NCBI RefSeq assembly: GCF_000018545.1
Contig: NC_012587.1
Span: 434,001 to 498,000, forward strand
DNA length: 64,000 bases
Reading direction: 5' to 3'
From: Sinorhizobium fredii NGR234
GTDB taxonomy: Bacteria; Pseudomonadota; Alphaproteobacteria; Rhizobiales; Rhizobiaceae
Below, in pieces: positions 21,907 to 22,157 of the stretch. The notes under the pieces were generated by a model, which ran no database searches, had not been told where the DNA came from, and saw only the letters and a list, made by a program, of their open reading frames with translations. The first letter of the stretch is position 1, and every line of letters starts with the position of its first letter. The translations under genes were made by a program, and so were the position numbers.

Positions 21907-22157
21907 TGTGCTAAGGCTGTCGCCTTGTCACATCATGTCCGTGCCGCCCGTTCAGCGCGCTTGACGCGCTGAACTCTCCTTAAGAGCATGGGCGAAGCTT
22001 TATGGACTGCTGTGCTAAGGCTGTCGCCTTATCACATCATGTCCATGCCGCCCGTTCAGCGCGCTTGACGCGCTGAACTCTCCTTAAGAGCATGGGCGAA
22101 GCTTTATGGACTGCTGTGCTAAGGCTGTCGCCTTATCACATCATGTCCATGCCGCCC
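21907..22157. repeat. 104-bp tandem repeat (2.4 copies) that includes the groEL tail
   Basis: Units lie at 21907-22010, 22011-22114 and, as a 43-base partial unit inside groEL and its downstream flank, 22115-22157. Units one and two differ at only two positions (21927/22031 and 21941/22045). Each full unit carries a copy of the last groEL codons (GGMDMM and stop on the minus strand; GGTDMM in the farthest unit), a small hairpin after the stop (AAGGC/GCCTT) and a strong palindrome (GTTCAGCGCG/CGCGCTGAAC at 21950-21974 and 22054-22078). Confidence 0.9.

Follow-up and report, generated by a model that had tools for sequence, protein, structure and literature searches.

Tandem copies of a conserved hairpin unit that overlaps the groEL stop codon in Sinorhizobium fredii NGR234 and its relatives

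The analysed window, a stretch of 64,000 nucleotides from S. fredii NGR234 (contig NC_012587.1, positions 434,001 to 498,000), contains a groESL operon on the minus strand, with a tandem array lying between groEL and the terminator. TRF placed this array at positions 21906-22157 (period 104, 2.4 copies, 98% matches, score 490). The runner-up array in the window scored 106, and a repeat search of the window returned a 104-nt pair at 98% together with a 51-nt family with three copies. The tandem 104-bp duplication of the groEL tail described in an earlier, sequence-only reading of this DNA is thus real. The features of the region are listed below; H1 denotes the groEL tail codons and stop codon paired with a 3' arm (A'), and H3 a strong hairpin of 10-11 bp.

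23852..24148, minus strand: groES, the upstream gene of the operon
22136..23773, minus strand: groEL, 545 aa, with the final codons serving as 5' arm of H1
22054..22157, minus strand: unit 1, 104 nt, made up of the groEL tail with its stop, an apical hairpin, the 3' arm and H3
22091..22111, minus strand: 3' arm A' of unit 1 (GTCCATAAAGCTTCGCCCATG), complementary to the groEL tail except for an unpaired AAA
22080..22090, minus strand: small hairpin h2 of unit 1 (CTCTTAAGGAG), weakly supported
22054..22078, minus strand: hairpin H3 of unit 1 (GTTCAGCGCGTCAAGCGCGCTGAAC)
21950..22053, minus strand: unit 2, 104 nt, without any difference from unit 1; starts with a copy of the groEL tail and its TGA
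21987..22007, minus strand: 3' arm A' of unit 2
21950..21974, minus strand: hairpin H3 of unit 2
21906..21949, minus strand: truncated third tail copy (GGGCGGCACGGACATGATGTGACAAGG...), with two differences from the units
21862..21886, minus strand: groESL intrinsic terminator, a GGGCGGC/GCCGCCC stem and U run

Read in mRNA sense, the groEL tail (GGCGGCATGGACATGATG-TGA) is followed by the hairpin AAGGCGACAGCCTT, the arm GTCCATAAAGCTTCGCCCATG, the linker CTCTTAAGGAGA and the palindrome GTTCAGCGCGTCAAGCGCGCTGAAC, after which come the tail again, the whole of unit 2, the truncated third tail copy and the terminator. Each unit contains the palindrome GTTCAGCGCG-TCAA-GCGCGCTGAAC, and the short hairpin AAGGCGACAGCCTT stands after the copied TGA; both elements had been recognised in the sequence-only reading, which also correctly placed the terminator about 250 nt from the groEL stop codon. 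When cut in groEL phase, units 1 and 2 are identical at 104 of 104 positions. The two differences formerly assigned to the full units do exist, but they are located in the truncated third copy, as is the ACG that would encode GGTDMM (in the tail copy at 21949-21906, not in a full unit). The 321-nt minus strand was predicted to fold at -168.8 kcal/mol (z -11), and none of 100 shuffled sequences was as stable. In NGR234 the array copies sit 3' of the tandem stops TGATAA, and a swap of the tail or readthrough coding was rejected. The proposal that the array lets the GroEL tail be exchanged found no support in the genus either, where 30 of 30 GroEL tails read end in GGMGGMDMM. NGR234 has three further groEL genes, and a covariance model detected a unit at none of them. 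In a search of the own genome there was one full locus, and the 15 additional matches extended over 15-25 bases only. Downstream of the array, an ORF of 936 aa on the plus strand (18702-21512), which reads like a GGDEF/EAL protein (domains named by eye), is convergent to groEL, so that the array separates two converging genes.

With few exceptions, the loci of relatives shared one architecture: a tail with the stop codon, the 3' arm, a linker, H3, a tail copy and, 3' of the array, a terminator of the same kind. The repeated segment, which had been taken as groEL tail plus flank, is therefore better described as a hairpin that spans the stop codon and is followed by a second hairpin. Lineages with the simplest form have the stop codon itself as the loop (ATGGGCGGCATGGACTTC-TAA-GAAGTCCATAAAGC..CGCCCAT). 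The sequence types of H3 were diverse (GTTCAGCGCG, CTTCAGGCCG, CTCAAGCCCG, CCGAAACCGG and GTTCAAGTCGGC) and all still palindromic, and the junction of H3 with (N)GGCGGCATG was nearly constant.

The conservation of these helices was assessed in two alignments. A3 was a MAFFT alignment of 48 units made from sequence alone, in which about seven short forms were misaligned at the apex. A4 was fitted to the structure model and comprised 124 sense units and one antisense row (L012:1624-1713), which was kept in the covariation count and left out of the remaining A4 counts. In A3, 92.6% of the pair cells were paired, compared with 31-44% in slid controls; 16 of 40 pairs had changed on both sides, with 82 both-side-changed cells versus 26.9 in shuffles (0/500). 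In A4, both-side changes affected 28 of 39 pairs (475 cells versus 126.8 in shuffles), including 10 of 11 pairs of H3 and 13 of 14 pairs of upper H1. Lower H1, whose 5' arm is coding, hardly varied and showed such changes in one of its 10 pairs. Across A3 and A4, the compensatory changes went beyond the shuffled and slid controls, which identifies the unit as a conserved structured RNA. Moreover, in H1 the G.U cells outnumbered the A.C cells by 94:13 (A4), 47:7 (A3) and 45:10 (33 clusters). A DNA cruciform should tolerate both mismatches alike, and hence the alignments indicate that, in H1 at least, it is the RNA in groEL sense that is under selection. In H3, with the loop-closing pair set aside, the bias (G.U 10 versus A.C 5) was not significant, so that this hairpin could be maintained at the DNA level. 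The small hairpin h2 was paired at 73-77% with a weak bias (G.U 27 versus A.C 17), and was rejected as a constrained hairpin.

Pairing across the stop codon was also seen at groEL loci without units. In 50 such loci, the tail together with its own downstream 20 bases was predicted to fold at a mean of -12.29, compared with -10.01 for swapped downstream sequences (sd 0.30, 0/200), and the longest helix across the stop was hardly longer than in swaps (5.54 versus 5.40, sd 0.11). This set started from 57 loci, of which six were removed by hand, four because of a unit or tail copy (L238, L248, L254 and L240) and two because of bad sequence (L256 and L257); 50 of the remaining 51 were parsed, and L215 and L217 were not entered. 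Since unit-less tails fold better with their own flank than with swapped ones, the stop-codon hairpin may be the older and more general state, with the H1-H3 unit being an elaboration. In several unit-less groEL genes (among L206-L230 and L231-L270), the stop codon lies in the loop of a short hairpin, for example GGACTTC-TAA-GAAGTCC in L255 and L265.

A 661-base query, which included groEL sequence, matched all 33 genomes of the genus. At the best groEL locus of 30 genus genomes, units were present in 10 (four in G011, two each in G000, G003 and G012, and one in six genomes), a remnant was found in one (G017), and 19 were without. Comparison with the groEL 3' flanks of other Sinorhizobium strains, which had been suggested as a check, thus revealed that the array is not private to NGR234. 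On a groEL CDS tree of the 30 Sinorhizobium loci (three of the 33 genomes had no locus, and the remnant was scored as present), unit presence required 10 changes, at least five of them on well-supported branches. As few changes were needed by 453 of 500 shuffled labelings, and presence was therefore no better clustered than chance.

The unit was nearly exclusively linked to groEL. The exact H3 pattern occurred at 14 sites in 8 of the 33 genus genomes, all 14 inside groEL arrays, and in 21 of 297 genomes of the family, where 23 of its 24 sites were inside groEL arrays. A search with the 19-base 3' arm in contigs of public genomes yielded 27 loci, of which 26 were units behind groEL from Sinorhizobium, Ensifer, Rhizobium, Ciceribacter, Pararhizobium, unclassified Rhizobiales and one apparently mislabelled MAG; the remaining locus (L087) was discarded as a chance match inside another gene. 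The MAG (L108) is labelled as the gammaproteobacterium Arenimonas; its groEL, which has two units, is rhizobial and probably stems from contamination.

Covariance model R2, which represents diverse units, matched 74 of 394 family genomes from 35 of 106 genera. Reading all 74 loci identified 71 units behind groEL and three exceptions, namely a MITE copy in G251 (L164), a remnant without tail copy in G159 (L133) and a locus with the terminator inside in G413 (L160). In the order draw, 13 of 297 genomes were matched by the covariance model, six of them belonging to three other families; among the 289 genomes drawn from the class, only the own genome was matched. The family, order and class tallies use stricter filters. 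Among 51 parsed loci from genomes without a model match (18 of 19 in one batch and 33 of 40 in another), five carried a unit or unit-like repeat (L217, L238, L240, L248 and L254), and the tallies are thus lower bounds, apart from two of the 74 that were not intact groEL units. In all 97 loci of the A4 set, a GroEL C-terminus was located at most 220 nt upstream; this figure covers the loci given to the A4 search, from which the MITE loci L156, L157, L158 and L164 were absent. The A4 sources numbered 98, with L182 giving no match, and the 97 are counted as loci, not necessarily from 97 different genomes. The covariance model found no match in 320 of the 394 family genomes, and this result together with the 10 changes on the Sinorhizobium tree demonstrates that the unit is dispensable.

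Copy number varied among the 97 loci, with 75 having one unit, 18 two, three having three and one four. Another four-unit locus with a 78-nt period, in G079, was missed by the covariance model. Even close relatives differed, with two units in NGR234, one in S. fredii USDA 205 and four in S. kostiense, and judging from these counts and the groEL tree, units are often lost or gained. Partial tandem duplication of H3 alone was seen in L066, L089 and L146. A tail copy (at least 15 of 18 identities) followed the last H3 in 92 of the 97 loci; in the other five, it came after a partial second H3 (L066 and L089), was degenerate (L077) or was lacking (L078 and L081). On average, the tail copy matched the tail of its own genome at 16.2 of 18 positions and other tails at 12.6. 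Positions 2-19 of the copy were kept at 91-100%, and similarity fell to about half by position 28, high similarity being favoured because the set consists of the 92 loci with a recognisable copy. At the position of the stop, 76 of these 92 copies had a stop codon and 16 had none. Transitions in the pairing segment of the tail copy preserved the pair in six cases and broke it in 11, with no bias toward preservation, and functional selection on the tail copy was accordingly rejected.

Units within a genome resembled each other closely. In 21 of 22 multi-unit loci (with one tie), the best within-genome pair was more similar than the nearest unit elsewhere in the set, and even the worst within-genome pair exceeded the nearest unit of another locus in 18 cases, with one tie and three below. 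These comparisons support homogenisation of the copies within genomes, in agreement with the recombination proposed in the sequence-only reading. The reading had offered a recent event as the alternative, which may be true of the second copy in NGR234, but the unit itself is old. Distances between units were correlated with groEL distances (Mantel rho 0.68, 0/999 permutations); inheritance therefore looks mostly vertical, with loss.

Taken together, we consider that there is an even chance that the array represents tandem copies of a conserved RNA element that protects the 3' end of the groESL mRNA and was amplified via its tail repeats. Of the roles considered in the sequence-only reading, stabilisation of this mRNA is thereby retained as the best candidate function. 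According to this model, the last groEL codons and the stop would form the 5' arm of H1, with the 3' arm being the complement of the groEL tail, and H1 would be succeeded by the small variable linker, the 10-11-bp H3 and the next tail copy. Once the ribosomes are gone, H1 and H3 would fold, and the folded hairpins ahead of the terminator could act as serial 3'-end barriers that slow the 3'-to-5' decay of a presumably very abundant mRNA. Stem-loops at 3' ends have been reported as blocks to 3'-5' exonucleases (PMC7509114). The direct repeats of the tail that flank H3 would allow recombination (such as unequal exchange) or slippage to add or remove whole units, so that copy number would shift often and the copies within a genome would stay alike. 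Through exchange between tail copies, a unit would be lost without a scar, which could explain the unit-less relatives.

An alternative, which we consider unlikely, is a translation-sensing switch with two registers. In this model, A' would pair with the upstream groEL tail if the ribosome is absent and with the downstream tail copy, as a decoy, if a ribosome occupies the stop codon, and the 3' end would thereby report completion of the message. The prevalence of the tail copy, its resemblance to the own tail and the decay of similarity beyond position 19 would all fit such a decoy, but pairing with a copy is a trivial consequence of copying, and the transitions in the tail copy showed no bias toward keeping the pair. 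Folding predictions were likewise divided. With the tail and a ribosome footprint masked, A' paired with the tail copy in four of six one-unit loci (L013, L098, L065 and L069, the last of these also when unmasked), but L128 and L147 did not re-pair, the distal unit folded on itself in the NGR234 window and in L123 when the tail was masked, and the arm of L124 paired with the third copy whether masked or unmasked. Furthermore, L078 and L081 have a unit without any tail copy. Still more doubtful is the extended proposal that the ribosome at the groEL stop, by deciding between tail and decoy copy as the partner of A', would couple decay or processing of the groESL mRNA to completed translation, with the array copy number tuning the effect.

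It is similarly improbable that the unit is a selfish or purely mutational DNA structure, that is, a palindromic cassette (A'-H3) between direct repeats which would be kept perfect by template switching, multiplied by slippage and occasionally moved without any service to the host. The nearly constant junction of H3 and the scattered presence of the unit would be compatible with this explanation, as would repeats that include the terminator. The latter were observed in L160, L217 and L240, where the repeated tail segment contains the complete terminator and groEL is thus followed by two terminators. In addition, a related cassette was found in g81 inside a MITE-like element of about 350 bp with TAGAGC..GCTCTA ends and TA flanks. 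The long form of this element carries the groEL-type cassette between two copies of GGGCGGCAT and was present in three copies in G397 and one in G251, with a diverged long match in G373. The MITE loci L167, L172 and L168 measured about 350 bp, and L170 and L174 262-268 bp; these short forms read ATGGGCGGCATG / CCCGATGGGCGGCATGAATTTG at the cassette site. The left MITE junction differed between long and short forms and was not clean. A single ectopic recombination via the motif common to both, with the MITE spreading afterwards, suffices to account for the moved copy, so that there is just one move to explain, and in the searches made this MITE was the only place where the cassette was met outside groEL. 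A dispersed mobile repeat was rejected as the main reading, since the unit and its palindrome occurred only behind groEL in the own genome, in the genus and at 23 of 24 family sites, the MITE being the exception. Moreover, the asymmetry of G.U over A.C in H1 and the correlation of unit with groEL distances argue against a selfish element, and a neutral structure should not persist across families.

A role of the array as the source of a 3'-UTR-derived small RNA or as an RNase III processing site would be consistent with the long H1 helix adjoining the terminator, but appears quite unlikely given that no Rfam family reached its threshold and that no transcript evidence was found. A simple functionless duplication by recent slippage, or an artefact of assembly, would account for the identity of the NGR234 units but is very unlikely, because the unit is kept across genera and families (neutral slippage alone, as envisaged earlier, would not explain compensatory changes in dozens of genera) and because private unit sequences in many loci, including arrays in the assemblies of other genera, make an artefact improbable.

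The element would constitute an RNA family, present in several Hyphomicrobiales families and unmatched by Rfam 15 at threshold, that overlaps the stop of a gene ranking among the best conserved in bacteria. The end of groEL both encodes protein and provides one strand of a covarying RNA helix. The unit evolves at the scale of a single gene by tandem copying and within-genome homogenisation. The natural series of zero to four units in close relatives offers a direct test bed for the effect of 3' structure on chaperonin mRNA; our searches found no data on groESL expression, decay or 3' ends.

The conserved groEL hairpin unit has apparently not been described so far. Searching positions 21500-24600 against Rfam 15, only MicX touched the array, on the other strand and with 17.6 of the required 75 bits. 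Nothing reached threshold in the loci of 10 relatives, where STnc70 scored 23.6 of 40 bits over the unit of L060. In the full-text literature, we recognised no groEL 3' element of this kind among the matches listed (in some lists the best 20 of 103, 20 of 97 and 12 of 33). Like intrinsic terminators and stabilising 3' stem-loops, H1 and H3 are stable hairpins at an mRNA end, but they have no U tract, H1 holds the stop codon, and the true terminator follows at 21886-21862. In contrast to the MITE-like element of g81 that houses a relative of the cassette, the groEL unit has neither terminal inverted repeats nor TA flanks. RIME1, which Osteras reportedly described in 1995 as a dispersed intergenic Rhizobium element, is said to be of about 100 bp with two large palindromes and would thus resemble the unit in size and form; in dispersal the unit differs from it, since, elsewhere in the NGR234 genome, matches spanned only 15-25 bases. 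REP and BIME palindromes are extragenic, lie downstream of genes, are plausibly transcribed, have been proposed as mRNA stabilisers and occur in tandem clusters, and the CGTC REPs of alphaproteobacteria are multi-copy elements whose stems span 8-9 bp, with CGTC as the terminal tag and a tail of the CCA type (PMC3733652). The groEL unit shares with the CGTC REPs palindromes 3' of a gene, tandem reiteration and a proposed mRNA stabilisation. Unlike CGTC and GTAG REPs, which have a GTAG or CGTC/TGTC/CCTC foot tag, an 8-9-bp stem and a CCA-type tail, H3 comprises 10-11 bp, carries CGTC at the loop only and has the foot GAGA..GGGC. High-copy dispersal was likewise not seen, with one full locus in NGR234 and all 14 palindrome sites of the 33 genomes lying behind groEL. 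The unit also differs from CGTC REPs in being tied to one gene, of which it includes codons and the stop.
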